Origin: Streptomyces coryli
GTDB lineage: Bacteria > Actinomycetota > Actinomycetes > Streptomycetales > Streptomycetaceae
Direction: 5' to 3'
DNA length: 64,000 bases
Assembly: GCF_011044975.1 (NCBI RefSeq)
Contig: NZ_JAAKZV010000017.1
Coordinates: forward strand, 1 to 64,000
The notes under the pieces were generated by a model, which had not been told where the DNA came from, searched no databases, and saw nothing but the letters and a program-made list of their open reading frames with translations. This document shows, piece by piece, positions 6,119-49,662 of the stretch. A program made the position numbers and the translations under genes. The number at the start of each line of letters is the position of its first letter. The first letter of the stretch is position 1.

Positions 6119-6951
6119 TCGGCAGGGAGACCACGGCCGGGCGGGCCGTGAAGTTCACCTTCCTCGGCCTGTGGCTGCTCTTCACGATCTTCCCGCTGTA
6201 CTGGATCGCGATCACGTCGCTGAAGGCACCCGGCGACATCTTCGCCTACCCGATCTCGTACTGGCCGGAGACCTTCTCGCTGGAGAACTACCGCGGCCTG
6301 TTCGGCAAGGCGAACTTCGGCACGTACCTCACCAACAGCATCATCGTCGCGACCGTCGCCGCCACGGTGGCCACGGCGGTCTCGATGCTGTCGGCGTATG
6401 TGCTGGCCCGCTTCGAGTTCCGTACGAAGTCCGCGCTGCTGATGGCCGCGCTGGTCACCCAGATGATCCCGGCCTTCATCGCGCTCGGCCCGCTGTATCT
6501 GCTGATGACCGACCTGCAGATGGTCGACAACCGCTTCGGCCTGATCCTCGTCTACATCGCCGTCTACATCCCGTTCTGCACGGTGATGCTCCGCGGCTTC
6601 TTCGAGAACATCCCGGACGCGCTGGAGGAGGCCGCCATGATCGACGGCCTCTCCCGCTTCGCCACCCTGTTCCGGGTGCTGCTGCCGGTGATGCGCCCCG
6701 GGATCATCGCCGCCTTCATCTTCAACTTCGTCAACTGCTGGAACGAGCTGTTCCTGTCGGTGACGCTGATGAACAGCGACGACACCAAGACCATCCCCAC
6801 GGCGCTCAACGGCTTCATCTCCAGCTTCAACATCGACTGGGGCTCGATGTCGGCGGCCGCCGTGCTCACCATCGCCCCCACGATGCTCCTGTTCGCCTTC
6901 GCCAGCAGGCACATCGTCCAGGGGCTCACCGCCGGCGCGGTCAAGGGCTGA
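6115..6951 (+). CDS. ABC importer permease, MalG-like
   Basis: The 278-residue protein has six predicted membrane spans and an EAA loop, L-E-E-A-A-M-I-D-G (about residues 170-178), as in MalG/UgpE-type permeases. It is the last gene of the aminotransferase-importer operon, and its stop lies five bases from the convergent acyl-CoA ligase stop. The F-P-L-Y-W-I-A-I-T-S-L-K segment in the first span region is characteristic of this permease group. Confidence 0.88.
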   Translation: MIGRETTAGRAVKFTFLGLWLLFTIFPLYWIAITSLKAPGDIFAYPISYWPETFSLENYRGLFGKANFGTYLTNSIIVATVAATVATAVSMLSAYVLARFEFRTKSALLMAALVTQMIPAFIALGPLYLLMTDLQMVDNRFGLILVYIAVYIPFCTVMLRGFFENIPDALEEAAMIDGLSRFATLFRVLLPVMRPGIIAAFIFNFVNCWNELFLSVTLMNSDDTKTIPTALNGFISSFNIDWGSMSAAAVLTIAPTMLLFAFASRHIVQGLTAGAVKG

Positions 6952-6956
6952 GGAGA

Positions 6957-8858: not shown

Positions 8859-10184
8859 ATGGATGCCCTGGCAGAGGCCGTCGTCGCAGGAGCACCCCGG
8901 GAGACCCTGACCCGGATCCCGCTGCCGGACACGTACACCGCCGCTCATCTCAGAGCCGCCGACGTCGGCCTGTTCGAAGGCGTGGAGGACAAGGACGTAC
9001 GCAAGTCGATCCACGTCGGCGACGTGCCGATGCCGGAACTCGCCCCGGACGAGGCCCTGGTGGCCGTCATGGCGAGCGGCATCAACTACAACACCGTCTG
9101 GTCGGCGACCTTCGAGCCGGTCCCGACCTTCGCCTTCCTCAAGCACTACGGCAAGCTGGACCGCTGGTCGGCCCGCCACGACCTGCCGCACCACGTCCTC
9201 GGCTCGGACGCCGCGGGCGTGATCGTACGGACCGGGGCCGGGGTGCGCCGCTGGCACGTCGGCGACGAGGTGGTGGTCGCCACCGCCTATGTCGACGACG
9301 AGGATCCGGCCACGCACTGGGACGGCATGCTCGGCGACACCCAGCGCGCCTGGGGCTTCGAGACGAACTTCGGCGGGCTCGCCCACTACGCGGTCGTGCG
9401 CGCCAACCAGCTGCTGCCGAAGGCGCCGCACCTGACCTGGGAGGAGGCGGCGGCGAACCCGCTGTGCGCGGGGACGGCGTACCGGATGCTGGTCAGCGAG
9501 CGCGGGGCCCGCTTCAAGCAGGGCGATGTGGTGCTGATCTGGGGGGCGGCCGGCGGCCTCGGCGCGTATGCCGCGCAGTTCGTACGGAACGGGGGCGGGA
9601 TCGCGGTCGGTGTCGTGTCGGCGCCGGAGAAGGCGGAGCGCGCGAAGGCCATGGGTTGTCATGTCGTACTCAACAGGCAGCAGTTGGGTCTCACCGGCAA
9701 CGAGCCACCGGATCCGGCCACCGCGGGCAAGCGGCTCGGGAAGCTGATCCGCGGCGCCGTCGGCGAGGATCCGCACATCGTTTTCGAGCACGTCGGCCGG
9801 GCCACCTTCGGCATCTCCGTCTTCGTGGTGCGCCGCGGCGGCACGGTCGTCACCTGCGGCTCGTCCACCGGCTACCAGCACGAGTACGACAACCGCTACC
9901 TGTGGATGCGGCTGAAGAAGGTCATCGGCAGCCACGGCGCGAATCTGCAGGAGCAATGGGAGACCAACCGGCTGATCTCGCTCGGGCATGTGCGGCCCGC
10001 GCTGTCGGCCACGTACCCGCTGTCGGAGACCGCGGAGGCCTCACGCCTCGTCCAGACCAACCGGCACACCGGCAAGATCGGCGTCCTCGGCCTGGCCCCG
10101 CGGTCAGGGCTCGGGGTGTCCGACGAGGCCCGGCGGGCCGAATTGGGCGGCGATGCCATATCGCCGCTGCTCACGCGCCAGTAG
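8859..10184 (+). CDS. ccr: Crotonyl-CoA carboxylase/reductase
   Basis: The 441-residue enzyme reductively carboxylates crotonyl-CoA (or longer 2-enoyl-CoA) to ethylmalonyl-CoA-type extender units using NADPH and CO2. It shows the zinc-free MDR fold with the nucleotide site W-G-A-A-G-G-L-G-A-Y-A-A-Q. Residues known to hold CO2 in this family are present: the N-Y-N motif at 76-78, F-E within W-G-F-E-T-N-F-G-G, and the histidine in G-S-H. F-E-H-V-G-R and the tail motif G-K-I-G-V-L are also conserved. It stands apart from other ethylmalonyl-CoA pathway genes and sits opposite an acyl-CoA ligase, so it may make branched extender units instead of serving central acetate assimilation. ATG 8859 follows a strong ribosome-binding sequence. 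Confidence 0.9.
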   Translation: MDALAEAVVAGAPRETLTRIPLPDTYTAAHLRAADVGLFEGVEDKDVRKSIHVGDVPMPELAPDEALVAVMASGINYNTVWSATFEPVPTFAFLKHYGKLDRWSARHDLPHHVLGSDAAGVIVRTGAGVRRWHVGDEVVVATAYVDDEDPATHWDGMLGDTQRAWGFETNFGGLAHYAVVRANQLLPKAPHLTWEEAAANPLCAGTAYRMLVSERGARFKQGDVVLIWGAAGGLGAYAAQFVRNGGGIAVGVVSAPEKAERAKAMGCHVVLNRQQLGLTGNEPPDPATAGKRLGKLIRGAVGEDPHIVFEHVGRATFGISVFVVRRGGTVVTCGSSTGYQHEYDNRYLWMRLKKVIGSHGANLQEQWETNRLISLGHVRPALSATYPLSETAEASRLVQTNRHTGKIGVLGLAPRSGLGVSDEARRAELGGDAISPLLTRQ

Positions 10185-33057: not shown

Positions 33058-33906
33058 TCAGACCCCCGCGGCAGCTCGGCGCGGGGCGACGCGGTGATCG
33101 CCGGCGTACACGTTCATGGAGGTGCCGCGGAGGAAGCCGATCAGCGTCATGCCGGACTCGGCGGCGAGGTCGACGGCGAGCGATGAGGGAGCGGAGACGG
33201 CCGCGAGGACCGGGATGCCCGCCATCACCGCCTTCTGCGCGAGCTCGAACGAGGCGCGGCCGGAGACCATCAGGACGGTGCCGGAGAGCGGCAGCCGGTC
33301 CTCGCGGAGGGCACGGCCGATGACCTTGTCGACGGCGTTGTGGCGGCCGACGTCCTCGCGGACGTCGAGCAGTTCGCCGCGGTCGGTGAAGAGCGCGGCG
33401 GCATGCAGCCCCCCGGTCCGCTCGAAGACCCGCTGATGCTCACGCAACCGGTCGGGGAGCTGGGCGAGCAGGTCCGTATCGAGACGGACCGGGGGGTGGC
33501 CGGTGAGGGGGAAACGGGTCTGGGTGCGCACGGCGTCGAGGCTGGCCTTGCCGCAGAGGCCGCAGGAGGAGGTGGTGTAGACGTTCCGCTCAAGGGTGAT
33601 GTCGGGGACGGGCACTCCGGGGGCAAGCTTCACGTCCACGACGTTGTACGTATTACTGCCGTCGGCGGTCGCGCCCGCGCAGTACACGATGCTCGACAGT
33701 TCGTCCGCCGCGCCGAGCACGCCCTCGCTCACCAGGAAGCCGGCGGCGAGGGCGAAGTCATCGCCGGGTGTGCGCATGGTGATGGCGAGCGGCTTGCCGT
33801 TGAGGCGGATCTCCAGGGGCTCCTCGGCTACGAGGGTGTCGGCGCGGCTGGTCGTGCCGGTGGCGCGGATGCGCAGGACCCGGCGGCGTTCGGTGACCCG
33901 TCCCAT
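33058..33906 (-). CDS. fdhD: Formate dehydrogenase accessory sulfurtransferase FdhD
   Basis: The 282-residue protein is FdhD, which passes sulfur to the molybdenum cofactor so that formate dehydrogenase becomes active. The two catalytic cysteines are in S-S-C-G-L-C-G (Cys115, Cys118), and the D-V-G-R-H-N-A-V-D-K and S-G-R-A-S-F-E motifs are conserved. It is the last gene of the fdh operon, five bases after the iron-sulfur subunit stop. Confidence 0.93.
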   Translation of the reverse strand: MGRVTERRRVLRIRATGTTSRADTLVAEEPLEIRLNGKPLAITMRTPGDDFALAAGFLVSEGVLGAADELSSIVYCAGATADGSNTYNVVDVKLAPGVPVPDITLERNVYTTSSCGLCGKASLDAVRTQTRFPLTGHPPVRLDTDLLAQLPDRLREHQRVFERTGGLHAAALFTDRGELLDVREDVGRHNAVDKVIGRALREDRLPLSGTVLMVSGRASFELAQKAVMAGIPVLAAVSAPSSLAVDLAAESGMTLIGFLRGTSMNVYAGDHRVAPRRAAAGV

Positions 33907-33911
33907 GGCTG

Positions 33912-34810
33912 TTACTCCCTGGTCTGGACGTGCTGGTAGCCGAAGCGGCCCTTGATGCAGAGGTTGCCGCGGGTGATCGGGTTGTCGTGCGGGGAGCTGA
34001 CCTTGACGATCTCGTTGTCCTGGACGTGCAGGGTGAGGTTGCAGCCGACGCCGCAGTACGCGCACACGGTGGTCGTCTCGGTCTGGGCGTCCTCGTCCCA
34101 GGTGCCCTCGGCGCGCATGTCGTACTCCGACTTGAAGCTGAGCGCGCCGGTGGGGCAGACCTCGATGCAGTTGCCGCAGTAGACGCAGGCCGAGTCGGGC
34201 AGCGGGCCGTCGTGCTCGACGGCGATGGTGTTGTCGAAGCCGCGCCCTGCTACCGCGATGGCGAAGGTGTTCTGCCACTGGTCGCCGCAGGCGTCGACGC
34301 ACTTGTAGCACATGATGCACTTGGCGTAGTCGCGCACGTAGAGGTCGTTGTCGACCTTGGCCTCGCGGCCCGCGACCGTGGCGGCGTCCGGGCCGAAGCG
34401 GTCGGGCTCGGCGCCGTATTCCCTTATCCATCCGGCGACATGGGGAGTTGTCGACAAGTCGGTTGAGGACGCGAGGAGTTCGAGCACCAGCTTGCGGCTG
34501 TGCCGGGCGCGGTCGGTGTCGGTACGGACCTTCATGCCCGGCTCCGCCTTGCGGGAGCAGGCCGGGGCGAGGGTGCGGGCGCCCTCAACCTCGACGACGC
34601 AGACACGGCAGGCGTTCTTGGGTGTGAGGGTGTCGCCGTAACAGAGGGTCGGGATGTCCTTGCCCGCGTCGCGGCAGGCGTCGAGGAGCGTGGCGCCCTC
34701 GGGGACGCGGACCTGGTCGCCGTCGAGGTCGAACTCGATCAGGCGGCGGGGCAGGCCGAGGGAGACGGGTGCGGAGCCCTGCGGCGTCCGGGTCCGCTCG
34801 GGTGTGGTGG

Positions 34811-34814
<4 letters not shown>
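33912..34814 (-). CDS. FDH iron-sulfur subunit carrying the displaced N-terminal half of the catalytic subunit
   Basis: The 300-residue protein holds, in order, a 2Fe-2S ferredoxin domain (Cys58, 69, 72, 86), two 4Fe-4S clusters (Cys166/169/172/176 and Cys210/213/216/220) and, at its C terminus, the 4Fe-4S domain that normally begins the molybdopterin subunit (C-A-Y-C-G-V-G-C, Cys251/254/258, and G-N-L-C-I-K-G-R, Cys286). In FdsA-type formate dehydrogenases this segment and the molybdenum domain form one chain; here the rest is a separate gene. It would carry electrons from the molybdenum site to the FMN/NAD subunit. Its start overlaps the preceding gene by four bases. Confidence 0.87.
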
Positions 34815-36642
<1,828 letters not shown>

Positions 36643-36643
<1 letters not shown>

Positions 36644-38595
36644 TACGCCACCTTTTCGATGCGGATTGCCGACGCCTTGAACTCCGCCGTGCCCGCGATC
36701 GGGCAGTTGGCCTCGATCGTGAGCTGGTTCGTATCCACCTCGTCCGGAAAGTGGAAGGTCATGAACGCCAGGCCGGGCCGCAGGCCCGGGTCCACCCACA
36801 CCGGCGCCGTGACGGTGCCCCGCCGGGAGGCGACCCGTACCTCCTCGCCCACCTCGACGCCGTAGGCGACCGCGTCCTCGGGACACAGCTCGATGTACTC
36901 ACCGCGCCGCAGCGGCGAGGCGAAACTGCCGCTCTGCACCCCGGTGTTGTACGAGTCGAGGCGGCGGCCCGTGGTCAGGCGCAGCGGGTAGTTCTCGTCC
37001 GTGAGGTCGACGGGCGGGTCGTGCTCGACCAGGCCGAAGGGCGCTCGCCTGCCGCGCTTGGCGGGGTCGGTCTCCCAGAGGCGGGCGTGCAGGTAGCTGG
37101 ACGGCAGCTTGTCGTCGTCCGGGCAGGGCCACTGCAGGCCGTGGTGCTCCTCGAGGCGGTCGTACGTCATGCCCCAGTGGTCAGGGGAGAGGGAGCGGAG
37201 CTCGTCCCATACCGCTTCGGAGTCGGCGAACTTCCACTCATGGCCGAAGCGGGCGGCCAGGTCGCAGAGGATGTCGATATCGTCCCGGGCCTCGCCGGGC
37301 GGCGTCAGCGCCGCCCGTACGCGCTGCACCCGCCGCTCACTGTTGGTGGTGGTGCCGTCGGTCTCCGCCCAGGAGGCGGTGGCGGGCAGCACCACGTCGG
37401 CCAGTTCGGCGGTCTTCGTCAGGAAGATGTCCTGGACGACGAGGTGGTCGAGGGCGGCGAGGCGGCGCAGGGCCTGCTCGCTGTCGGCCTCGGACTGGGC
37501 CGGGTTCTCGCCGATGCAGTAGACCGCGTGCAGTGTGCCCTCCTCCATGGCCTCGAACATCTGGGTGAGGGTCATGCCGTAGCTCGGCTGGATCACGGTG
37601 TCCCAGGCGGTCTCGAACTTCTGCCGGTGGCCGTCGTCGAGGATGTCCTGGAAGCCGGGGAGGCGGTTGGGGATGGCGCCCATGTCGCCGCCGCCCTGCA
37701 CGTTGTTCTGGCCGCGCAGCGGCTGGACGCCGGAGCCGTAGCGGCCGACGTGTCCGGTGAGGAGGGAGAGGTTGATCAGCGCCCGGACGTTGTCGGTGCC
37801 GTTGTGGTGCTCGGTGATGCCGAGGGTCCAGCAGAGCTGGGCGCGTTCGGCGGTGGCGTAGACGTGGGCGAGCTCGCGGATGGCCTCCGCGGGGACGCCG
37901 GTCACCTTCTCGGCGAGGGAGAGCGTCCAGGGCTCGACCAGCTTGACGTAGTCCTCGAATCCGCTGGTCGCGCGCTCGATGAAGGTCTTGTTGTGCAGGC
38001 CGGACTCGATGATCTCGCGGCCGATGGCGTGTGCGAGGGCGATGTCGGTGCCGACGTTCAGGCCCAGCCAGCGGTCCGACCACTCCGCCGTGGAGGTGCG
38101 GCGCGGGTCGACGGCGAACATCCGGGCGCCGTTGCGGATGCCCTTCAGCACGTGCTGGAAGAAGATCGGGTGCGCGAAGCGGGCGTTGGAGCCCCACATC
38201 ACGATCACGTCGGTGTCCTCCACCTCCCCGTACGAGGAGGTGCCGCCGCCGGAGCCGAAGGCCGCGGAGAGGCCGGCGACGCTCGGGGCGTGGCAGGTGC
38301 GGTTGCAGGAGTCGACGTTGTTGGTGCCCATCACCACGCGGGTGAACTTCTGCGCCACGTAGTTCATTTCGTTGGTGGCGCGGGCGCAGGACAGCATCGC
38401 GAAGGAGTCCGGGCCGTGCGCCTCGCGCGTCCGGCGGAATCCCGCGGCGGCGCGGTCGAGCGCCTCGTCCCAGGTGGCGCGGCGGAATGGCGCGTCGCGG
38501 GAGTCCCGGACCAGGGGGTGGGTGATCCGGGGATACGTCTTCGGGGTGCGGCCGGTGCGCCGGGAGTTGTCCGTACGGCCTTGGCGGTCCTTCAT
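36643..38595 (-). CDS. Molybdenum formate dehydrogenase catalytic subunit lacking its N-terminal Fe-S domain
   Basis: The 650-residue protein is a molybdopterin oxidoreductase of the formate dehydrogenase group. The metal ligand is Cys101 followed by catalytic His102 in N-R-T-C-H-A-P-S-V-A-G-L, where some enzymes have selenocysteine. G-Q-N-N-V-Q-G-G-G-D-M-G and the C-terminal molydopterin dinucleotide-binding domain (R-L-T-T-G-R, about residue 550) are present. The usual N-terminal 4Fe-4S domain is absent here and is found at the end of the 300-residue subunit two genes downstream. The product oxidises formate to CO2. AAGGGAGC precedes ATG 38595. A GntR box lies in the divergent promoter. Confidence 0.9.
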
Positions 38596-38655
38596 TGCGC
38601 GCTCCCTTGCGTGCTGCTCGCTATCGCGGGGGCTCTTTCGAAGTCGACAGAATAT

Positions 38656-38664
38656 TGTCTACAG
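38656..38664 (-). promoter_or_regulatory. GntR-type box in the fdh/moeA divergent promoter
   Basis: On the minus strand this reads CTGTAGACA, inside GGATACTGTAGACAATATT. The same nine bases recur in front of the FCD-GntR gene at 40078, and close variants occur at 45247 and 47510-47537. It lies 61 bp upstream of the fdh catalytic gene start. Confidence 0.7.
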
Positions 38665-38774
38665 TATCCGTTCGACGGCGGTCAAGGCTCGTGCAGAGCC
38701 TCAACCGGCCTGTCGAAACGGCTGGTTGGCAGCCGGGCTTCCGCCCGGCTCGACGCGGCGGAAAGGCGGCGCGC

Positions 38775-39992
38775 ATGACCACGCTCGACGAACGGCCCAC
38801 TGCCCGGCACCCGGAGACACACGAGTCCCCGACGCCGTGGCCGGAGGCCCGGCGGATCGCCGCCGGGGCCGCGCAGCCACTGCCCGCCCGCGACGCGCCC
38901 CTGCGCCGCTGCCGCGGCCGCGCGCTCGCCGAACCGCTCGTCGCCGGGCTCGCGTTGCCCGGCTTCGACACCGCCGCCATGGACGGATACGCGGTCGCGG
39001 GCCCGGCGCCGTGGCGTGTGGTGGGCCGCATCCTGGCCGGACGGGAGGCGGTCATCGACCGCATCGCGGCCGGCGAGGCCGCGGAGATCGCCACCGGAGC
39101 GCTGGTCCCGGCGGGCGCGACCGCGGTGCTGCCGTACGAACAAGCCGGACGGGCGGGTGAGTTGGTCACCGGCAGCGTCGAAGCCGGGCGGCACATCCGC
39201 CGCCGCGGCGAGGAGTGCGCCGAGGGGCGCGAGGTGCTGCCGGCCGGCACGGTCGTCTCCCCTGCCGCGCTCGGCCTCGCCGCGAGCCTCGGCTGCGACC
39301 GGCTCGCCGTCCACCGGCGCCCGCAGGTCGCGGTGCTGGTGACCGGCGACGAGGTGGTACGGCGCGGCACGCCCCCGCCGGGTCGGGTGCGCGACGCCAT
39401 CGGGCCGCTGCTCCCCGGTCTGGTCGAGTGGGCGGGCGGCGAGCCGCTGCCGACGACGTATGTGCCGGACGGCCGTACCCCGCTCGCGGAAGGGCTCACC
39501 AGGGCAGCCCGCGCCACCGACGTGATCGCGGCGTGCGGGGCGTCGTCACGCGGCCCCGCCGACCATCTGCGCGGCACCCTGCGCGAGTTGGGCGCCGCAT
39601 TCCTCATCGACGGCGTGGCCTGCCGTCCGGGCCACCCGCAGCTGCTCGCCCGGCTGCCCTGCGGCACGCTCGTCGCCGGGCTGCCCGGCAATCCGTACGC
39701 CGCCTACGCGGCCGGACTCACCCTCCTCGCCCCGCTGCTGGGCCGGCTCTCCGGCCGTACGCCTCCGGGCCCCCGCTACGCGCCCCTCTCCCCCGCGCCG
39801 GGCGGGACCGCGCCGCACCCCAGGGACACCCGCCTGGTCGCCGTCACGCTCGACGCCGCGGGCCGGGCCACGCCCGTCGGCCGGGACCGCCCGGGTCTAC
39901 TGTGGGGCGCGGCGGCGGCCGACGCGCTCGCCGTGCTCCCGCCCGGCGGCGAACTCCCGCCGGAGGCGGAGCTCCTGGAGCTGCCGCAGTGA
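38775..39992 (+). CDS. moeA: Molybdopterin molybdenumtransferase MoeA
   Basis: The 405-residue protein is a MoeA-family enzyme that inserts molybdenum into adenylylated molybdopterin. Typical elements are M-D-G-Y-A-V-A-G, the A-T-G-A-L-V-P-A-G-A-T-A-V region, V-L-V-T-G-D-E-V-V and G-L-P-G-N-P-Y-A. It is divergent from the formate dehydrogenase operon that needs this cofactor, and a GntR box lies between them. ATG 38775 follows GGAAAGGCGG; longer in-frame starts upstream would run into the promoter. Confidence 0.88.
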   Translation: MTTLDERPTARHPETHESPTPWPEARRIAAGAAQPLPARDAPLRRCRGRALAEPLVAGLALPGFDTAAMDGYAVAGPAPWRVVGRILAGREAVIDRIAAGEAAEIATGALVPAGATAVLPYEQAGRAGELVTGSVEAGRHIRRRGEECAEGREVLPAGTVVSPAALGLAASLGCDRLAVHRRPQVAVLVTGDEVVRRGTPPPGRVRDAIGPLLPGLVEWAGGEPLPTTYVPDGRTPLAEGLTRAARATDVIAACGASSRGPADHLRGTLRELGAAFLIDGVACRPGHPQLLARLPCGTLVAGLPGNPYAAYAAGLTLLAPLLGRLSGRTPPGPRYAPLSPAPGGTAPHPRDTRLVAVTLDAAGRATPVGRDRPGLLWGAAAADALAVLPPGGELPPEAELLELPQ

Positions 39993-40043
39993 CGGTGGCC
40001 GCAGTGGCCAAACACCGTGTGAAGAGGATCACCATCTGTGCAA

Positions 40044-40060
40044 CCCGCCTGACAGGCGGG
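40044..40060. terminator. Short GC-rich hairpin between moeA and the GntR gene
   Basis: CCCGCCT-GAC-AGGCGGG forms a perfect seven-bp stem with a three-base loop, 52 bases after the moeA stop. No T-tract follows closely, so it could be a weak terminator or a protein-binding inverted repeat. Confidence 0.5.
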
Positions 40061-40077
40061 GTATCACACTCAGTAGA

Positions 40078-40086
40078 CTGTAGACA
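40078..40086 (+). promoter_or_regulatory. GntR-type box in front of the FCD-GntR gene
   Basis: CTGTAGACA lies 28 bp upstream of the regulator start and is identical to the box at 38656. A partial copy AGTAGAC precedes it at 40072-40078. Its position suggests autoregulation. Confidence 0.7.
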
Positions 40087-40113
40087 AAAGCCAATCGAGG
40101 CCGGGGGGAAGCG

Positions 40114-40803
40114 ATGCTCTCCACAGGATTGCCGCAGGGTGCCATGCCCAAGCTGGAGCGCCCTGGACCGCTCCGCGAGCGGGTGTACGAGGCGCTGCTG
40201 GACCTGATCATCACGCGCGCCCTGAGCCCCGGCCAGCACCTGGTCGAGACCGAACTCGCCGGCCACCTCGGCGTATCCCGGCAGCCCGTGCGCGAGGCGC
40301 TGCAGCGGCTCAACACCGAGGGCTGGGTCGATCTGCGCCCCGCCCAGGGCGCGTTCGTGCACGAGCCCACCGAGCAGGAGGCCGACCAGCTGCTCGTCGT
40401 CCGCGCCCTGCTGGAGACGGAGGCGGCCCGGCTGGCGGCGGCCAACGCGACGGGTCCTGGGGTGAAGGAGCTGGAGCGGCTGTGCGCCGTCGGTGAGGCC
40501 GCGGTGGAGGCCGACACCGTCGACGAGGTGGTGGCCGCCAACGCCGCCTTCCACGCCTACGTGATGCAGCTCGCCGGCAACGCGGTGCTGACGGAGCTGG
40601 CCGCCCAGGTGGACCGCCGGGTGCGCTGGTACTACACGCCTGTCGCCCGGCAGCGCGGCGCCCAGTCCTGGATCGAGCACCGCGAGCTGATCGCCGCCAT
40701 CAAGGGCCGCGACGAGGCCGAGGCGCAGGCCGTGATGCGTACGCACACGGAGCACACCCGCACCTCGTACCACCAGCGGCAGAAGGACGACGGGAAGGGC
40801 TGA
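40114..40803 (+). CDS. GntR-family regulator, FCD type, candidate master of the oxalate/formate island
   Basis: The 229-residue protein has a winged helix (about residues 20-85, with L-G-V-S-R-Q-P-V-R-E-A-L-Q-R-L) and an FCD domain with N-A-A-F-H-A-Y and I-E-H-R-E-L-I metal/ligand motifs. FCD regulators often sense small organic acids. It is encoded between moeA/fdh and the oxalate-type transporter, and CTGTA(G/T)(A/G)CA boxes mark the fdh/moeA, own and ThDP/sucC promoters, so it is the best candidate for controlling the island. Oxalate, formate or a CoA ester as ligand is an inference. A GGGGGGAAG ribosome-binding sequence precedes the ATG. Confidence 0.9.
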   Translation: MLSTGLPQGAMPKLERPGPLRERVYEALLDLIITRALSPGQHLVETELAGHLGVSRQPVREALQRLNTEGWVDLRPAQGAFVHEPTEQEADQLLVVRALLETEAARLAAANATGPGVKELERLCAVGEAAVEADTVDEVVAANAAFHAYVMQLAGNAVLTELAAQVDRRVRWYYTPVARQRGAQSWIEHRELIAAIKGRDEAEAQAVMRTHTEHTRTSYHQRQKDDGKG

Positions 40804-40817
40804 GCCCGGACGACGCG

Positions 40818-40847
40818 GGGCCCGCCCTGAGGGAGCGGGGCGGGCCC
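40818..40847. terminator. Bidirectional terminator, GntR gene / OFA transporter
   Basis: Perfect 10-bp arms GGGCCCGCCC (40818-40827) and GGGCGGGCCC (40838-40847) flank a 10-base loop between the convergent GntR and transporter genes. It can end transcripts from both sides. Confidence 0.8.
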
Positions 40848-40873
40848 TGACGTGCGTGGGGACGGGATCGGGG

Positions 40874-42265
40874 TTACTCGGCCTCCCTGCTGATCGGCTT
40901 CGGGTTGGGGCTGACGACCAGCCGGCCCCGGTAGTCGCGTCCAGGCGCCTTGAGGAACAGCGCGATGAAGAACGCCAGGAGGGACAGCGAGCCGGCCAGG
41001 GTGAAGGCCCCGTTGAGACCCCAGGCGGTCACCGCGATGGAACCCATGCCGGCGCCCAGGCCGGACACGAGCTTCGAGCTGTAGACCATGCCGTAGTTGG
41101 ACGCGTTGTTGTTCTCGCCGAAGTAGTCGGCGGTCATGGCCGCGAACATCGGGAAGATCGCGCCGCCGCCGAATCCGGAGATCGCGGAGAAGATCAGGAA
41201 CAGCGGCAGGTTCTTGATGTCGGCCGACCAGATGATGCCGAACTGCGAGAGGCCCAGGACGATACAGACGAAGAGCAGGCATTCCTTACGTCCGTACCGG
41301 TCGGAGAGCCAGCCGATGACCCCGCGCCCGGTGCCGTTGACGATGGCCTTCAGGGACATGGCCGTCGCTACGATCCCGGCGGCGAAGCCGGCCTCTTCAC
41401 CGATGTCGACCTGGAACGAGATGCCGAAGATATTGACGCCCGAGGTGAAGGCGAGACAGACCCACATCACCGCGACCCGGCCGGTCCTCCAGGCCTCCCC
41501 CGGCGAGTACTGCTTGATCGCCGGCGGGTTCTTCTGCAGCGAACGGGCCGCCCGCGGGTCCTCCGGCGGGTGCAGCGGGTCGATCTCCGCGGGCCACCAG
41601 TTCTTCGGCGGGTCCTTGAAGAAGAAGCCGGCGTACGCCACGGCTCCGGCGAGGAACAGCCCCGCCGAGACCAGCACCCACTGGTAATTGCTCGCGTCCA
41701 TGTAGCCGTGGAAGAGGAAGACGAACGGCACCGAACCGTAGGCGAAGCCGCCGTTCACGAAGCCGGTCTTGCCGCCCTTGCGCTCCGGATACCACTTGCC
41801 GACCATGTTGACGCAGGTGGCGTACACCATGCCCGCGCCCATCCCGCTGAACACGCCGAAGCCGATGACCGCCAGCATGACGTGCGGCGCGAAGGCCAGC
41901 GACAGATAGCCGATGAAGGTGCCTGCGGCGCCGAGCATCATCGCCCAGCGGGCGGGCAGTTTTCCGGACTCACGCAGCTTTCCCGCCGGGAAGGCGACTG
42001 CGGCCTGGAAGAACACCCAGCACGTCAGCATCCAGTAGATGCTGGTGCTGGACCAGGCGTGCGCCTCGTGCAGCGTGTCCTCGGCGGACGCGAACGCGTA
42101 CTCCGCCGAGGAAATGCCCATCATGCCGATCCACGGCAGGATGACCATCCACTTGCGCTTGCGGCCCATGATGTCGATATCGGACTCGCCCAGGCGGTAG
42201 GTCCGCCCGTTTGCATCGGTGACCTCCCGGTATGCGGCCACCTTTGGAAAGTCTGTTGTTGTCAC
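40874..42265 (-). CDS. OFA-family MFS transporter (oxalate/formate antiporter-like)
   Basis: The 463-residue protein has 12 predicted membrane spans and the sequence features of the OFA family: W-x-x-x-S-I-Y-W in the first region, G-M-G-A-G-M-V-Y-A-T, W-Y-P-E-R-K-G in the loop, and G-F-G-G-G-A-I-F-P-M-F in the second half. OFA members exchange oxalate for formate or carry related monocarboxylates. The start is GTG, followed by three ACA codons. A strong hairpin separates it from the acyl-CoA synthetase gene upstream, so it has its own promoter. In this setting it most likely imports oxalate or exports formate. Confidence 0.88.
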   Translation of the reverse strand: MTTTDFPKVAAYREVTDANGRTYRLGESDIDIMGRKRKWMVILPWIGMMGISSAEYAFASAEDTLHEAHAWSSTSIYWMLTCWVFFQAAVAFPAGKLRESGKLPARWAMMLGAAGTFIGYLSLAFAPHVMLAVIGFGVFSGMGAGMVYATCVNMVGKWYPERKGGKTGFVNGGFAYGSVPFVFLFHGYMDASNYQWVLVSAGLFLAGAVAYAGFFFKDPPKNWWPAEIDPLHPPEDPRAARSLQKNPPAIKQYSPGEAWRTGRVAVMWVCLAFTSGVNIFGISFQVDIGEEAGFAAGIVATAMSLKAIVNGTGRGVIGWLSDRYGRKECLLFVCIVLGLSQFGIIWSADIKNLPLFLIFSAISGFGGGAIFPMFAAMTADYFGENNNASNYGMVYSSKLVSGLGAGMGSIAVTAWGLNGAFTLAGSLSLLAFFIALFLKAPGRDYRGRLVVSPNPKPISREAE

Positions 42266-42340
42266 GGCTGTTGCACCCCTTGCGTGGAGAGAATCCGGAC
42301 AGCGCCCCCTGCCTGATCTCTTGCTGTGCTGTGGTGCGCC

Positions 42341-42373
42341 GGGGCCGGCCCCTGTCCTGACGGGGCCGGCCCC
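42341..42373. terminator. Strong hairpin between the acyl-CoA synthetase and transporter genes
   Basis: Two copies of the self-complementary 12-mer GGGGCCGGCCCC (42341-42352 and 42362-42373) flank a nine-base loop and pair perfectly. It lies just downstream of the minus-strand synthetase stop, so it should end the ThDP enzyme-transferase-synthetase transcript. Confidence 0.8.
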
Positions 42374-42387
42374 GGGGTGCTGCGGTG

Positions 42388-44535
42388 TTACGTGAGCAGG
42401 CCCGCGGCCCGGGCCCAGCGGTACTTCGCGCCGAGTACGGCGACCGGCTTCTCGGTCGTGTACGGGTACGCGACGACCCCCCGCTCGAAGAGGTACTGGC
42501 AGGCCTCCTCGACCTCCGTGTCGCCCGCGAGGGACGCCACGACGGGCTTGACGTTGCCCTTGGCCCGCTCCTCCGCCACCACGCGGGCGGCGAGCTCGGC
42601 GAAGACCATGGGCGGGGTGACAATCGTGTGCCAGTAGCCGAGGACCAGCGAGTGGATGCGCGGGTCGGTGAGCCCCAGGCGGATCGTCGCCTCGTAGGTG
42701 GACGGCGGCTCGCCGCCGGTGATGTCGATCGGGTTGCCCGCCGCGCCGAAGGGCGGGATGTACTTCATGAACGCCTCGTTGAGGTCCTCCGGGATGTCCA
42801 TGAGCTGCATGCCGTTGTCGACGATGGCGTCGGAGAGCAGCACGCCGGAGCCGCCGGCGCCCGTGATGATCACGACGTTGTCGCCCTGCGGCGTGGGCAG
42901 GACCGGCAGCGCGCGGGCGTACTCGAGCATCTCGTTCAGGCCCGGCGCCCGGATGACGCCGGCCTGCTTCAGGATGTCGTCGTACACGGCGTCGTCACCG
43001 GCGAGCGCCCCGGTGTGCGACCCTGCGGCCTTGGCGCCCGCCGACGTACGGCCGGCCTTGAGCACGACCACCGGCTTCTTCGGCACGGTCGCCCGCGCCG
43101 CCTCGACGAAGGCGCGGCCGTCCTTGAGGTCCTCCAGGTGCATCGCGATGCACTGGGTGTTCTCGTCCTCCCCGAAGTAGGTCAGCAGGTCGTCCTCGTC
43201 GACGTCCGACTTATTGCCCAGCCCGACGATCGCGGAGACGCCGGTCTTGGTCGTACGGGCGAAACCGAGGATCGCCATGCCGATCCCGCCGGACTGGGAG
43301 GTGAGCGCCACGCCGCCCTTGACGTCGTACGGTGTGCAGAACGTGGCGCACAGGTCCTGCCAGGTGGAGTAGTAGCCGTAGATGTTCGGGCCGAGCATGC
43401 GGATGTTGTGTTCGGTGGCGATGTCCACGATCTGCTGCTGCAGCTCGTGCTCGCCGGTCTCGGCGAAGCCGGAGGGGATGAGGACCGCGTTGGGGATGTT
43501 CTTGCGGCCCACGTCCTCGAGGGCGGAGGGCACGAACTTCGCCGGGATGGCGAAGACCGCGACGTCGACCTCGCCCGGCACGTCGGTGATCGACTTGTAG
43601 GCCTTGCGGCCCAGGATGTCGTCGGCCTTCGGGTTGACCGGGTGGATGTCGCCGGCGAAGCCCCCGTTGATGAGGTTCTTCATCACCGAGTTGCCGATCT
43701 TCCCCTCCTCGTTGGAGGCGCCGATGACGGCGACAGAACGCGGCTTCATCAGCCGGTTCATGGCGGCGAGGATCTCGTCGCGGGAGAAGGTGCGACGGAC
43801 CGGTTGCTCGCCTTCGGCGAGGATGATCCGCAGGTCCGCGGCCAGGGCGCCCTCAGGGGTGGCGATGACCGGGTTGAGGTCCACCTCGGCGATCTCGGGG
43901 AAGTCGGTGACCAGCTCCGAGACCCGGCGGATCTGCTCGGCGACCGCCCAGCGGTCCACCGCCTCTCCCCCGCGCACGCCGCGCAGGATCTCGGCGGCGC
44001 CGATGGAGTCCAGCATCCCGACGGCGGTGTCCGCGTCGACCGGCGCCAGGCGGAAGGTGACGTCCTTGAGCACCTCCACCAGTACGCCTCCGAGCCCGAA
44101 GGCGACGACCTTGCCGAAGGTCGGGTCGGTGACCGCACCGACGATGACCTCGTGCGCGTCGGGCCCGGAGGGCAGCATCTGCTGCACCTGCACGCCCTCG
44201 ATGCGGGCCTCGGGGTTGTACGCCTTGGCGTTGTCGATGATGCGGTGGAAGGAGGCCCGTACGTCGGCGGCGCCCTCGATGCCGACCTCCACTCCCCCGG
44301 CGTCGGTCTTGTGCAGGATGTCGGGCGAGACGATCTTCAGGACCACCTTGCCGTCGAAGCGCGCGGCGGCCGCCACCGCCGCGTCCACGTCCTTCGCCAA
44401 TTCCTCGCCGGGAGCGGCGATCCCGTACGCGTCGGCGACCTGCTTCGCCTCCGGTGCGGTCAGTGCGGTGCGGCCGTCGGCGGCGACCTGCTTCAGCAGC
44501 GCCTTGACGACGTCGCGGGACTGGGGCTCGACCAT
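42388..44535 (-). CDS. NDP-forming acyl-CoA synthetase (acetate-CoA ligase, ADP-forming type)
   Basis: The 715-residue protein combines an N-terminal ATP-grasp domain (beta part, about residues 1-240, with V-V-L-K-I-V-S-P-D-I-L-H-K-T-D) and a CoA-binding/ligase part (alpha part, from about 265, with S-V-A-V-I-G-A-S). His507 in G-S-H-T-G-A-L-A-G is the expected phosphorylated residue. Such enzymes link acyl-CoA hydrolysis to ATP formation, or the reverse. Third in the operon with the ThDP enzyme and formyl-CoA transferase, it could turn formyl-CoA into formate with ATP gain, or activate oxalate. Beta-before-alpha order is noted. It starts five bases after the transferase stop codon begins. Confidence 0.85.
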   Translation of the reverse strand: MVEPQSRDVVKALLKQVAADGRTALTAPEAKQVADAYGIAAPGEELAKDVDAAVAAAARFDGKVVLKIVSPDILHKTDAGGVEVGIEGAADVRASFHRIIDNAKAYNPEARIEGVQVQQMLPSGPDAHEVIVGAVTDPTFGKVVAFGLGGVLVEVLKDVTFRLAPVDADTAVGMLDSIGAAEILRGVRGGEAVDRWAVAEQIRRVSELVTDFPEIAEVDLNPVIATPEGALAADLRIILAEGEQPVRRTFSRDEILAAMNRLMKPRSVAVIGASNEEGKIGNSVMKNLINGGFAGDIHPVNPKADDILGRKAYKSITDVPGEVDVAVFAIPAKFVPSALEDVGRKNIPNAVLIPSGFAETGEHELQQQIVDIATEHNIRMLGPNIYGYYSTWQDLCATFCTPYDVKGGVALTSQSGGIGMAILGFARTTKTGVSAIVGLGNKSDVDEDDLLTYFGEDENTQCIAMHLEDLKDGRAFVEAARATVPKKPVVVLKAGRTSAGAKAAGSHTGALAGDDAVYDDILKQAGVIRAPGLNEMLEYARALPVLPTPQGDNVVIITGAGGSGVLLSDAIVDNGMQLMDIPEDLNEAFMKYIPPFGAAGNPIDITGGEPPSTYEATIRLGLTDPRIHSLVLGYWHTIVTPPMVFAELAARVVAEERAKGNVKPVVASLAGDTEVEEACQYLFERGVVAYPYTTEKPVAVLGAKYRWARAAGLLT

Positions 44536-44539
44536 GGGC

Positions 44540-45769
44540 TCAGATCACTCCGTTCGTCTTGAGGTCGGCCAGCTCCGCGGCTGTGAGACCCAGTTCGCGT
44601 TCGTAGATGTCGGTGTTGTGCTCACCCAGGAGCGGGGACCGGTCGACGTCGACGGGAGAGTCGGAGAGCTTCAGAGGGCTGCCGACGGTGACGTACGAGC
44701 CGCGCTCGGGATGCTCGACCTCGACCACGATCTCGTTGTCCCGCAGGCTGGCGTCCTCGACGATCTCCTTGGTGGAGAGGATGGGGCCGCAGGGGATGTT
44801 GTGGGCATTGAGCTTCTCCAGGACCTGCCATTTGGGCAAGGTGCTGGACCATTCCTCGATCAGCTGGAACATCTTGCCGAGCTTCGGCAGCCGCGCCTCC
44901 GGGGTGTTCCACTCGGGGTCCTCGGCGAGCTCGGGCCGGCCGATCAGATCGGTGATCGGCTGCCAGCCGACGGGCTGCACGATCACATACACGTAGTCGT
45001 TCGGGCCGCCGGGCGCGCATTTGACAGCCCAGCCCGGCTGGCCGCCGCCGGAGGCGTTGCCGGAGCGCGGCACCTCGTCACCGAAGTCCTCGTTCGGGTA
45101 CTCGGCGAGCGGGCCGTGGGCGAGCCGCTGCTGGTCGCGGAGCTTGACGCGGCAGAGATTGAGCACGGCGTGCTGCATCGCGACGTTCACGCGCTGACCG
45201 CGGCCGGTGTGGGTGCGCTGGAAAAGCGCAGCCAATATACCGGCTACTGTATGCATTCCCGTGCCCGAGTCACCGATCTGCGCGCCCGTGGCGAGGGGCG
45301 GCCCGTCCTCGAAGCCGGTGGTCGACATCGACCCGCCCATGGCCTGGGCCACGACTTCGTAGGCCTTGAAATTCGTGTACGGGCCGTCGCCGAAGCCCTT
45401 GATGGACGCGTAGATGATCCGCGGATTGATCTCCTGGATCCGCTCCCAGGAGAAGCCCATCCGGTCCACTGCGCCGGGGCCGAAGTTCTCCACCATGATG
45501 TCGCTGCGCTTGATCAGCTCGATGAGGAGCTCTTTGCCGCGCGGCGTCTTGGTGTTGAGGGTGATGCTGCGCTTGTTGCCGTTCAGCATCGTGAAGTAGA
45601 GGCTGTCCACGTCCGGCAGGTCACGCAGCTGCTTGCGCGTGATGTCTCCGGTCGGCGCCTCCAGCTTGACCACATCGGCGCCGAGCCAGGCGAGGATCTG
45701 GGTGGCGGAGGGGCCGGACTGGACATGCGTCATGTCCAGGACGCGCACCCCGTCGAGGGCTTTCGTCAC
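44540..45769 (-). CDS. frc: Formyl-CoA:oxalate CoA-transferase (class III CoA-transferase)
   Basis: The 409-residue protein is a class III CoA-transferase closely resembling formyl-CoA transferase. It has the catalytic aspartate (Asp167) in [12 protein letters not shown], the glycine loop [11 protein letters not shown] of oxalate-using enzymes, and D-M-T-H-V-Q-S-G-P at the N terminus. It moves CoA from formyl-CoA to oxalate, giving oxalyl-CoA and formate. Length matches the family. GTG 45769 follows AGGTGA. Codons 171-182 are unusual: eight of thirteen end in A or T, including GTA and ATA, and they overlap a GntR-type box. Confidence 0.88.
45247..45255 (+). promoter_or_regulatory. GntR-type box inside the formyl-CoA transferase gene
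   Basis: CTGTATGCA inside the coding region is identical to the box at 47529; the match extends to 11 bases, TACTGTATGCA (45245-45255 and 47527-47537). The surrounding codons are AT-rich at wobble positions, unlike the rest of the gene, which suggests selection for the DNA sequence itself. Confidence 0.6.
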
Positions 45770-45780
45770 TTCTCGTCACC

Positions 45781-47472
45781 TCACTTGTACATCGTCTGGT
45801 TCATGGTTCCGGGGGCGTACGCGTCCGGGTCGACCCAGACGTTGATCAGCGACGGCTTGCCCGACTCGCGGGCCCGCTGCAGCGCGGGGGCGATGTCGGC
45901 CGGGTCGCGGACCTCCTCGCCGTAGCCGCCGAGCATCTTGGCGAACTGGTCGTACGGCACGTCGCCGAGCGTGTTGCCGACCCGCTCCCGCTCCAGGCCG
46001 TACTTGGCCGCCTGGCCGTAACGGATCTGGTTCATCGAGGAGTTGTTGCCGACGATGCCGACGAACGGCAGGTTGTAGCGGACGAGGGTCTCGAAGTCCC
46101 AGCCCGTCAGCGAGAACGCGCCGTCGCCGAAGAGCGCGACGACCTCCTTGTCCGGGCGGGCCTGCTTGGCGGCCAGCACGAACGGGACGCCGACGCCGAG
46201 GGTGCCGAGCGGGCCCGGGTCCATCCAGTGGCCGGGCGTGCGCGGCTGGACCACCTGGCCGGAGAAGGTGACGATGTCGCCGCCGTCCCCGATGTAGATG
46301 GAGTCCTCGGTGAGGAAGTCGTTGATCTCGCTGACCAGGCGGTACGGGTGGATCGGCGAGTCGTTCTTCTTCAGGTTCGGCAGCCGCTTCTCGATGGCCT
46401 TCTGCTCGACGGCGCGCAGCTCGTCGAGCCAGTCCTTGCGCTTGGTGGCGCCGCCGTTGATCCGCCCGGAGGCAGCCTGGGTGACGGCGGCCAGGACGAG
46501 GGAGGCGTCGCCGACGATGCCGAGGTCGATGTCGCGGTTCTTGCCGACGGTCCGGTAGTCGAGGTCGATCTGGACGACCGTCGCCGAGGGCGAGAGCCGC
46601 TTGCCGTAGCCCATCCGGAAGTCGAAGGGCGTGCCGACGATGATGATGAGGTCGGCCTCGGTGAAGGCGTACCGGCGGGAGAGCTGGAAGTGGTGCGGGT
46701 CGCCGGGCGGCAGGGTGCCGCGGCCCGCGCCGTTCATGTACGCGGGGACGTTGAGGGTGCGTACGAGCTCGGTCGCGGAGTCGGTCGCGCGGGTCGTCCA
46801 GACCTGGCTGCCGAGCAGGATCGCCGGCTTCTCGGCCTGTACGAGGAGGTCGGCCAGCTTCTCGATGGCCTCGGGGTCGCCGGCCTGGCGGGTGGAGGCG
46901 CGGTAGTGGCCGGCCTTCGGGACGCGCGCCTTCTCCGCCGGGACCTTCGCGTCGAGGACGTCGCGCGGAATCTCGAGGAAGGACGGTCCCGGCGAGCCGT
47001 TGAAGCACTCACGGAAGGCCATCGAGACCATGTCCGCCGCGCGGGCGGTGTCGGGCACGGTGGCGGCGAACTTGGTGATCGGCGCCATCATGTCGACGTG
47101 CGGGAGGTCCTGCAGCGACCCCATCTTGTGCTGGGTGAGCGCCCCTTGGCCGCCGATCAGCAGCATGGGGCTTTCGGCGCGGAAGGCGTTCGCCACGCCG
47201 GTGACGGCGTCGGTGGTGCCGGGTCCCGCGGTGACGACCGCGCAGCCGGGCTTGCCCGTGATGCGGGCATAGCCGTCGGCGGCGTGCGCGGCCACCTGTT
47301 CATGCCGTACGTCGACCACTTCGATGCCTTCATCGACGCAGCCGTCGTAGATGTCGATGATGTGGCCGCCGCAGAGCGTGTAGATGACGTCGACGCCTTC
47401 GGCCTTGAGGGCCTTTGCGACGAGGTGGCCGCCGGAAACCTGGTCTGAGGTGCCGGAAGTGCCGTCAGCCAT
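45781..47472 (-). CDS. ThDP-dependent enzyme, oxalyl-CoA decarboxylase / 2-hydroxyacyl-CoA lyase group
   Basis: The 563-residue protein has the three-domain layout of ThDP enzymes: N-terminal pyrimidine domain with Glu58 in [15 protein letters not shown], and a C-terminal pyrophosphate domain with G-D-G-A-F and N-N downstream for magnesium. [12 protein letters not shown] resembles 2-hydroxyacyl-CoA lyases. Context (formyl-CoA transferase, formate dehydrogenase, OFA transporter) points to decarboxylation of oxalyl-CoA to formyl-CoA. However the Tyr-Glu pair near residue 120 and the Tyr near 480 of classical oxalyl-CoA decarboxylase are not evident, so another formyl-CoA or acyloin reaction is possible. 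It is the first gene of its operon. ATG 47472 follows GAAGGGA. Confidence 0.78.
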
Positions 47473-47509
47473 GGCGAGTTCAGTCCCTTCGGAGCACGAC
47501 TCTGTACAT

Positions 47510-47537
47510 TGCATACAGGACACGAATACTGTATGCA
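47510..47537. promoter_or_regulatory. Paired GntR-type boxes in the ThDP-enzyme/sucC divergent promoter
   Basis: TGCATACAG (47510-47518) and CTGTATGCA (47529-47537) form a perfect nine-bp inverted repeat with a 10-base spacer, so box centres are 19 bp apart. A further CTGTA at 47502-47506 pairs with the TACAG of the first box. The region lies between the ThDP enzyme start (47472) and the sucC-like start (47630), where it can act on both operons. Confidence 0.75.
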
Positions 47538-47629
47538 GACGGTTATCCCGCATCGGTGAGTCGATGTCCAGGGGGCGTGCACCGGAAATCTCTCCAGTCG
47601 AACCCGACCCAGGGCAGGTGCAGTTGACG

Positions 47630-48766
47630 ATGGATCTCTTCGAGTACCAGGCGCGGGAGCTGTTCGCGCGGCACGGCGTCCCCGTGCTGGACGCGGCGGT
47701 CGTGTCGGACCCCGAATCGGCCCAGACGGCCGCTGAGTTGCTGGGCGGCCGCGTGGTCGTCAAGGCGCAGGTGAAGACGGGCGGCCGCGGCAAGGCGGGG
47801 GGTGTGAAGCTCGCCGCGCACCCGGGCGAGGCGGTGGCCGCCGCCCAGGCCATCCTCGGCATGGACATCAAGGGCCACACGGTCGGGAAGGTGATGCTGG
47901 CTCAGACGGCGGATATCGCCGAGGAGTTCTACGCCTCGTATCTCCTCGACCGCACCAACCGCACCTGGCTGGCGATGGCGTCGGCCGAGGGCGGCATGGA
48001 CATCGAGGAGGTCGCGGCGACCAAGCCGGAGGCCCTGGCCCGTATCCCGGTGGACCCGGTCGAGGGCGTGACCGAGGCGGTCGCGCGCGACATCGCGGCC
48101 GCGGCCGGGCTGCCGCCGGAGACCGCGCCCGCGCTGGTCGCGCTGTGGGAGGTCTTCACCGCGGAGGACGCGGTGCTGGTGGAGGTGAATCCGCTCGTAC
48201 GGACCACGGACGGGCGCATCCTCGCCATCGACGGCAAGGTCACCCTCGACGACAACGCCCGCGGCCGGCATCCGCAGCACGACGCGTACGACGTCCCGGG
48301 CGAGGGCGGCGATCTCGAGTCGCAGGCGCGCGCCAAGGGCCTCAACTACGTGAAGCTGGACGGCAGCGTCGGCATCATCGGCAACGGCGCGGGGCTGGTG
48401 ATGTCCACCCTGGACGTGGTCGCCCGTAACGGCGCCGATCCCGCCAACTTCCTGGACATCGGCGGCGGAGCTTCGGCGCAGGTGATGGCCGACGGGCTCG
48501 GCGTGATCCTCTCCGACGCGGACGTGAAGTCCGTCTTCGTGAACGTCTTCGGCGGCATTACGGCCTGCGACGCCGTCGCCAACGGCATCGTGCAGGCCCT
48601 CGACCAGGTCGAGCTGACCAAGCCCCTGGTCGTACGCCTCGACGGCAACAACGCGGCGGCCGGGCGCGAGATCCTCGACGGCGCCGCGCACCCCCTCGTC
48701 ACCCGACTCGACACCATGGACGGCGCCGCCGCGCGCGCCGCCGAGCTGGCACTCGCAGGGAGCTGA
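47630..48766 (+). CDS. sucC: Succinate-CoA ligase beta subunit-like (ATP-grasp)
   Basis: The 378-residue protein has the SucC layout: [12 protein letters not shown] at the start, [16 protein letters not shown] for nucleotide binding, the E-V-N-P-L-V motif for magnesium, and the C-terminal ligase domain with [12 protein letters not shown]. Paired with the SucD-like protein it would join CoA to a dicarboxylate using ATP or GTP. Because it sits in the island rather than with TCA-cycle genes, it may be a paralogue for oxalate, succinate or a related acid. ATG 47630 is preferred; GTG 47618 is an in-frame alternative. Confidence 0.85.
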
Positions 48767-48768
48767 TC

Positions 48769-49662
48769 ATGGCCATCTATCTCACCGCGCACAGCAAGGT
48801 CGTCGTCCAGGGCATGACCGGCTCCGAGGGCCGCAAGCACACCGCCCGCATGCTCGCCGCCGGCACGAACGTGGTCGGCGGCGTGAACCCGCGGAAGGCG
48901 GGCCAGAGGGTCGGCTTCGATGGCACGGAAGTCCCGGTCTTCGGCTCCGTGAAGGAAGCGATCGACGCCACCGGCGCCGACGTCTCCGTCGTCTTCGTCC
49001 CGCCGCCCTTCGTGAAGGACGCCGTCGACGAGGCCACGGACGCCGGCATCGGCCTCGCGGTCGTCATCACCGAGGGCGTCCCGGTGCACGACTCGGTCGC
49101 CTTCCGCGCCCGCGCCGCCGCCGCGGGGACCCGGATCGTCGGGCCCAACTGCCCCGGCCTGATCACCCCGGGCGAGTCCAACGCCGGCATCATCCCCGCC
49201 GACATCACCAAGCCGGGCCGCATCGGCCTGGTCTCGAAGTCCGGCACGCTGACGTACCAGCTCATGTACGAGCTGCGCGACATCGGCTTCTCCACCTGCG
49301 TCGGCATCGGCGGCGACCCGGTCATCGGCACCACCCACATCGACTGCCTGCGCGCCTTCGAGGAGGACCCGGACACCGATCTGATCGTGATGATCGGCGA
49401 GATCGGCGGGGACGCCGAGGAGCGGGCGGCGGCCTTCATTTCAGGACAGGGGGGCATCAAGGCCAACGTCACCAAGCCCGTGGTCGGTTACGTCGCCGGC
49501 TTCACCGCGCCCGAGGGCAAGACCATGGGCCACGCGGGCGCCATCGTCTCCGGCTCGTCCGGCACCGCACGGGCGAAGAAGGAGGCCCTGGAGGCCGCCG
49601 GGGTACGGGTCGGCGAGACGCCGTCCGAGACCGCCCGGCTCGCCCGGGAGGTGCTCGGGTGA
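48769..49662 (+). CDS. sucD: Succinate-CoA ligase alpha subunit-like
   Basis: The 297-residue protein is SucD-like, with a CoA-binding Rossmann domain (Q-G-M-T-G-S-E-G near residue 15), [12 protein letters not shown] and the phosphohistidine His255 in G-H-A-G-A-I-V-S-G. It follows the beta subunit by two bases. The usual length is about 290, so it is complete. Its stop overlaps the carbonic anhydrase start (GTGA). Confidence 0.88.

Follow-up and report, generated by a model that had tools for sequence, protein, structure and literature searches.

The 64,000-base window analysed here (positions 1 to 64,000 of Streptomyces coryli contig NZ_JAAKZV010000017.1) carries a metabolic island with genes for a formate dehydrogenase (FDH), a MoeA-like molybdotransferase, an FCD-GntR regulator, an MFS protein, a putative oxalate operon (oxc-frc-acd) and a succinyl-CoA synthetase (sucCD), in which a short box, CTGTAKRCA, recurs between genes. 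Judging from comparisons with related loci, the four intergenic boxes are very probably operators of the adjacent FCD-GntR protein, which would act as a local repressor of oxalate and formate breakdown that also controls its own gene.

Boxes in three intergenic regions and their conservation

All five CTGTA(G/T)(A/G)CA sites listed in a preliminary description of this DNA were found at their positions and strands, and they are the only exact matches in the window. Shuffled windows gave a mean of 0.34 and at most 2 matches (100 shuffles), a figure that flatters the motif because the pattern was drawn from the five sites themselves, and with one mismatch allowed there was no excess (10 found against 14.75 expected). 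The description had placed four of the five between genes, and this is borne out: they occupy three gaps, fdhA(-)/moeA(+), the region upstream of the GntR gene, that is, the regulator's own promoter, and oxc(-)/sucC(+), and the fifth, at 45247, lies in the frc coding sequence. A less circular check comes from a position matrix built from relatives' sites only, although these sites had been gathered with patterns derived from the CTGTAKRCA motif. Its top ranks in the window are the four intergenic sites, at 38651 (minus strand, score 30.9), 40074 (plus, 27.0), 47525 (plus, 24.2) and 47505 (minus, 19.5); 40 Markov-simulated windows gave scores no higher than 18.0, under all four, and the frc-internal site, at 14.0, stays within the chance range. 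The contention that such boxes are unlikely to arise by chance is thus upheld by matrix ranking and conservation for the four intergenic sites; the site at 45247 and the one-mismatch count lend it no support.

The predicted full element is a pseudo-palindrome of 16-18 bp, about ATACTGTAKRCAATAT, that contains the nine bases. Species genomes were scanned with the regulator, which yielded 384 relatives, and the best 80 loci were kept (76-85% identity; Streptomyces and one Actinacidiphila). In these relatives the extended box is present at three promoters, those of formate dehydrogenase, of the FCD-GntR gene itself and of the divergent oxc/sucC pair. FDH-type promoters share CATACTGTAGACAATATT, then GTCGAC, and a strict form of their box, ATACTGTAGRCA, occurs in 61 of the 80 loci, all 61 being among the 73 with an fdhA or fdhD match. 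As this alignment was anchored on the box pattern, identities in the core are mostly forced and were not used; among the columns outside the anchor in 60 sequences, the five that follow it show 0.90-1.00 identity and GTCGAC 0.84-0.97, compared with flanks at 0.35 and 0.31. The regulator promoter regions were chosen by gene and not by motif, and there the double box GTAGACTGTAGAC stands 41-132 bp before the start codon, exact in 73 and relaxed in 79 of the 80 loci (55 rows were kept with full context, 74 with a shorter one). Because the unforced columns and the gene-chosen regions agree, our main conclusion is kept without the forced core identities. One row, L029, the second of two copies in one genome (the first being L028), was dropped from the alignments, the matrix and the unforced-column counts.

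At oxc, 89 genomes gave a match, and the 30 with the best scores supplied loci L111-L140; L017 and L074, which offer no usable oxc upstream, were left out of the promoter set. Relatives keep the inverted pair TTGCATACAG and CTGTATG in the oxc/sucC gap, 10-11 nt apart in 39 of the 40 sequences with a promoter match. On the sucC side most of them read CTGTATGAA, so that the 9-mer CTGTAKRCA is too strict there. A promoter-like TGGACA-17/18-GATAAC is found at oxc in 40 of 41 sequences (spacer 17 in 35, 18 in 5; the remaining one, L006, reads GACAAC), and in all 40 promoter-matching sequences the oxc box starts 6 nt downstream of GATAAC. Positions 47548-47564 of the window form the spacer of this element, whose hexamers are conserved in the gap beyond the boxes.

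With an operator lying over the likely oxc start site, repression is the likeliest mode of action. The same operators could instead serve a regulator that activates, or that both activates and represses, an option we regard as unlikely: no convincing -10/-35 could be assigned at fdh and gntR, so that the position of the sites there gives no direction, and a pair of sites could also fit activation of one arm. At oxc, however, the box follows the -10-like hexamer at a distance of 6 nt in 40 of 41 sequences, which is a repressing position.

Co-occurrence of box and regulator in other genomes

Genome-wide specificity was measured in relatives, namely 61 genomes of the genus of Streptomyces coeruleorubidus (G004, the genome of locus L047). 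Across 8 related genomes, counts of the bare 9-mer run from 16 to 46 per genome, compared with 61-172 for its reversed control, so that it is the rarer of the two; alone, it is not specific to these promoters, whereas the extended box nearly is. A genome scan of the kind envisaged in the preliminary description finds the extended box to be rare, with 41 matches to ATACTGTAKRCA spread over 28 of the 61 genomes, while its reversed control gave 10. A close orthologue of the regulator is present in 37 of the genomes, among them all 28 with the box (in G035 as two halves). The extended box thus occurs in 28 of 37 genomes with the regulator and in 0 of 24 without it (p 7e-10), a zero column that, despite the relatedness of the genomes, is hard to get otherwise. 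The double box GTAGACTGTAGAC gave 29 matches in as many genomes, and comparison by eye places every one of them upstream of a regulator match. For ATTGCATACAG there were 39 matches against 3 for the reversed control; 24 of the 39 are found no more than 200 bp from oxc, and they represent 24 of the 27 genomes with oxc. The regulator itself accompanies oxc in 27/27 genomes and is found in 10/34 genomes that lack oxc. Thirty of the 41 extended boxes were read as loci: 26 adjoin FDH, panE, OFA-MFS or fdhD genes or oxc genes, and those of L151 and L170 belong to an island with a regulator paralogue.

A search of 394 genomes of the class gave a regulator match at E 1e-55 or better in 40 of them. The 14 least similar of 29 new loci (L230-L243, 61-73% identity; about ten further genomes gave no locus) formed a distant set, in which 12 of 14 hold a matrix site scoring at least 18.4 within 3.6 kb per locus. 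Three of them (L236, L238, L239) carry a perfect palindrome, CATACTGTATACAGTATG, and L240 and L241 a version that differs at its ends.

Several observations weigh against our interpretation. Of the 73 loci in which fdhA or fdhD was matched, 12 are without the strict FDH-type box; the extended box is missing from 9 of 37 regulator genomes and the exact double box from 8 of 37; 15 of the 39 ATTGCATACAG matches are not beside oxc, and the extended boxes of L164 and L166 have no recognised target nearby. In the distant set, L235 has a weak site only (11.0, with CTGTAGACA) and L234 none in the 3.6 kb read. Genomes of one genus are not independent, which makes the Fisher p-values (3e-9 to 2e-10) too small. 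Finally, a consensus sigma-70 scan of the region found no promoter, the oxc one included, so that the latter is read from conservation only.

Sister regulators of 57-58% identity were seen in G032 and G048, beside boxes upstream of an Fds-like FDH and a carbonic-anhydrase-family gene, with pntA as well in G048; the Fds-like FDH gamma subunit beside a sister regulator scores 194.5 bits (cut-off 198). Paralogue islands with the same box and with Fds-like FDH, carbonic-anhydrase-family and acyl-CoA-dehydrogenase-like genes lie in L201 (3370-18006, which also holds pntA) and L202 (3849-6787).

Genes of the island and the pathway they probably serve

Table 1. Coordinates of genes, putative operators and promoter-like element in the window
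Feature	Position	Strand	Evidence or remark
FdhD	33058..34431	-	PF02634
NuoE/NuoF-like FDH subunit	34811..36634	-	Pfam, on longer open reading frame 34811-36886; start codon estimated
Formate dehydrogenase alpha subunit (fdhA)	36643..38595	-	TIGR01591 626.8 bits, under cut-off 666.25
GTCGAC, possible second half-site adjoining operator 1	38643..38648	.	Conserved in relatives; fits NyGTM-KACNy
Putative operator 1, extended box ATACTGTAGACAATAT	38652..38667	-	fdhA(-)/moeA(+) gap; matrix and conservation
MoeA-like molybdotransferase	38775..39992	+	PF03453 and PF00994 above cut-off; under NCBIfam cut-offs
Putative operator 2, overlapping double GTAGAC (GTAGACTGTAGAC) upstream of regulator gene	40073..40085	+	Covers most of 40078-40086
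FCD-GntR regulator, 229 amino acids	40114..40803	+	Pfam GntR 3e-19, FCD 6e-27; PF00392 and PF07729 above cut-offs
Oxalate/formate-family MFS	40874-42265		Oxalate/formate-family models under cut-off, level with lactate-transporter model
ADP-forming acyl-CoA ligase family (acd)	42388..44535	-	Pfam domains above cut-off; NCBIfam models under cut-off
Formyl-CoA transferase Frc	44540..45769	-	TIGR03253 equivalog 689.3 bits, above cut-off 504.2
Box-like 9-mer in frc coding sequence, probably no general operator	45247..45255	+	4/43 frc rows; score 14.0
Oxalyl-CoA decarboxylase / 2-hydroxyacyl-CoA lyase family enzyme (oxc)	45781..47472	-	Name Oxc rests partly on neighbouring Frc
Putative operator 3a, oxc side of divergent oxc/sucC promoter	47510..47518	-	ATTGCATACAG matches near oxc
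Putative operator 3b, sucC side, inverted relative to 3a	47529..47537	+	Inverted-pair spacing conserved
Promoter-like TGGACA-17-GATAAC of oxc operon	47542..47570	-	Operator 3b starts 6 nt after GATAAC
SucC	47630..48766	+	NF001913 above cut-off
SucD	48769..49662	+	NF004230 above cut-off

What had been described as CoA-ester operons is most likely an oxalate operon together with its own succinyl-CoA synthetase, and oxalate is most likely the substrate of the pathway (Table 1). The oxc product reaches 257.9 bits with the Oxc equivalog model (TIGR03254, oxalate_oxc; cut-off 739.4), which makes it a member of the wider family only, and its closest solved relatives are 2-hydroxyacyl-CoA lyases. The gene could encode such a lyase, with the regulon serving a 2-hydroxy acid rather than oxalate breakdown; this alternative is compatible with the same operators, and we hold it to be rather improbable. 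Against it, the adjoining Frc scores above its equivalog cut-off, the MFS protein matches oxalate/formate-family models, though below their cut-offs and no better than a lactate-transporter model, and actinobacterial OXC sequences form a separate group of their own in the available part of PMC10192776. In oxalate breakdown as known from the accessible text of PMC12927642, oxalyl-CoA is decarboxylated to formyl-CoA and formate is freed, then oxidised by FDH. Because formate from the oxalyl-CoA pathway feeds FDH, co-control of the FDH and oxalate genes is sensible.

Control of the whole island, as first proposed, is too wide a claim: the MFS gene has no upstream matrix match among the window's best 18, and a 14-bp perfect inverted repeat separates it from acd. 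This GC-rich repeat, at 42339-42375 in the gap between the MFS and acyl-CoA ligase genes, is possibly a terminator. The frc-internal box at 45247 was rejected as a general operator, since the comparison of homologous loci, in which the extended boxes proved conserved, recovers it in 4 of 43 frc rows, and the codon identity of its carriers to the window is 0.53 around the box against a mean of 0.66. All carriers (the window, L051, L074 and L120) have the codons CAT ACA there, and several neighbouring codons differ. The box could be a lineage-specific intragenic operator.

Control of moeA would follow from its divergent layout; among relatives with mapped neighbours, moeA was matched in L001, L002 and L005 only. 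In relatives the FDH operon commonly begins with a panE-like gene, and across the box stands an OFA-family MFS or KAS-III-like gene, then gntR. Locus L047 shows a panE-like reductase heading the FDH operon and a KAS-III-like gene before the regulator (6127-7158 and 8873-9853; named by eye from sequence), and the window has neither at the corresponding place. A PanE-type oxalyl-CoA reductase reportedly occurs in Methylobacterium.

A predicted repressor of oxalate and formate catabolism

From the sites, their conservation, their co-occurrence with the regulator and their spacing to the promoter-like element, we infer that a dimer of the FCD-GntR protein would recognise a pseudo-palindrome, ATAyTGTMKRCArTAT, at three target promoters: its own, that of formate dehydrogenase (in the window divergent from moeA) and, through a pair of sites, that of the divergent oxc-frc-acd and sucCD operons. 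At oxc the site would cover the predicted transcription start, a placement that most likely means repression, and relief would presumably follow when the FCD domain binds one of the pathway's small C1/C2 carboxylates, be it oxalate, formate or a CoA ester. The earlier proposal that the regulator at 40114 controls the FDH, gntR and CoA-ester promoters is supported by the relatives, with a box of 16-18 bp in place of nine bases. In the regulator the DNA-binding LGVSRQPVREA region and the stretch around RRVRWY are conserved, and N143, H147, H189 and H211 are invariant in 14 regulator sequences, with Asn at the position where metal-binding FCD proteins have Asp; the conserved FCD residues would be compatible with a small-carboxylate site.

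According to the available part of PMC4494728, FadR-subfamily GntR regulators recognise the consensus NyGTM-N0-1-KACNy, often accompanied by further half-sites, and pairs of sites in the gap of divergent operons have been described. GTAGAC at fdh and gntR and GTATAC in distant relatives fit this consensus exactly, the flanking GTCGAC fits it too, and GTATGC at oxc/sucC is one base off. As far as that text goes, the window regulator shares with these FCD proteins its domain make-up, a putative palindromic operator, nearby extra half-sites, paired sites between divergent operons and a site in its own promoter, and differs in its targets (FDH, oxc/frc and sucCD) and in the exact box. The consensus is common to the whole FadR subfamily, and these genomes hold further, weaker regulator relatives; the boxes might be targets of some other factor, either a sigma factor or a different GntR, and merely travel with the island. 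We consider this very unlikely, as the extended box is absent from all 24 genomes without a close orthologue, though 23 of them hold weaker relatives (33-41% identity, among the matches listed), the double box stands upstream of this very regulator in 29/29 matches, and, where the regulator has 61-67% identity, 11 of 12 loci have a box next to it, a weak one in one case. Chance recurrence of an AT-rich 9-mer, for which its bare frequency per related genome might speak, is scarcely credible, being refuted by conservation and matrix ranking for the four intergenic sites and a fair account of 45247 only.

Among NCBIfam models the regulator matches PhnR-type FCD regulators best (TIGR03338), at 108 bits far under the cut-off of 271.5, and unlike PhnR it has no phosphonate gene among the genes identified beside it. 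A further comparison is offered by 'A. chiangmaiensis', whose genus we take to be Actinomycetospora. In the 2-hydroxyisobutyryl-CoA lyase cluster of this actinobacterium a GntR-family gene likewise lies beside a related thiamine-dependent lyase, and an FDH is induced on the same substrate; the substrate is other than oxalate, and the available text gives no operator (PMC7176365). No description of our regulator or its operator was found among the titles and abstract beginnings listed, RegPrecise not being covered; of the papers listed for the sequence strings, none has a title that points to a bacterial regulator, and the accessible text of PMC12927642 has no mention of GntR or a regulator, and that of PMC10192776 no 'regulat'. 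What emerges is a local regulon of an ordinary kind for which the comparative evidence is clean, in a part of metabolism where no described regulator was found.

It is possible, and we offer it tentatively, that the regulator is the founder of an uncharacterised lineage of actinomycete GntR repressors that respond to formate or oxalate and share one conserved operator code; the lineage would have duplicated in some streptomycetes, where the sisters and the same box may govern a second, Fds-like FDH, carbonic anhydrase and NAD(P) transhydrogenase, as a C1-oxidation regulon sensing formate or oxalate directly. Streptomycetes with oxalate and formate genes would gain an identified switch, comprising a regulator, an operator and a target list. 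Formate oxidation would be tied to oxalate breakdown in one circuit, and regulated genes could be predicted wherever the regulator occurs (384 relatives). If the ligand is indeed formate or oxalate, the regulator would be usable as a sensor part.

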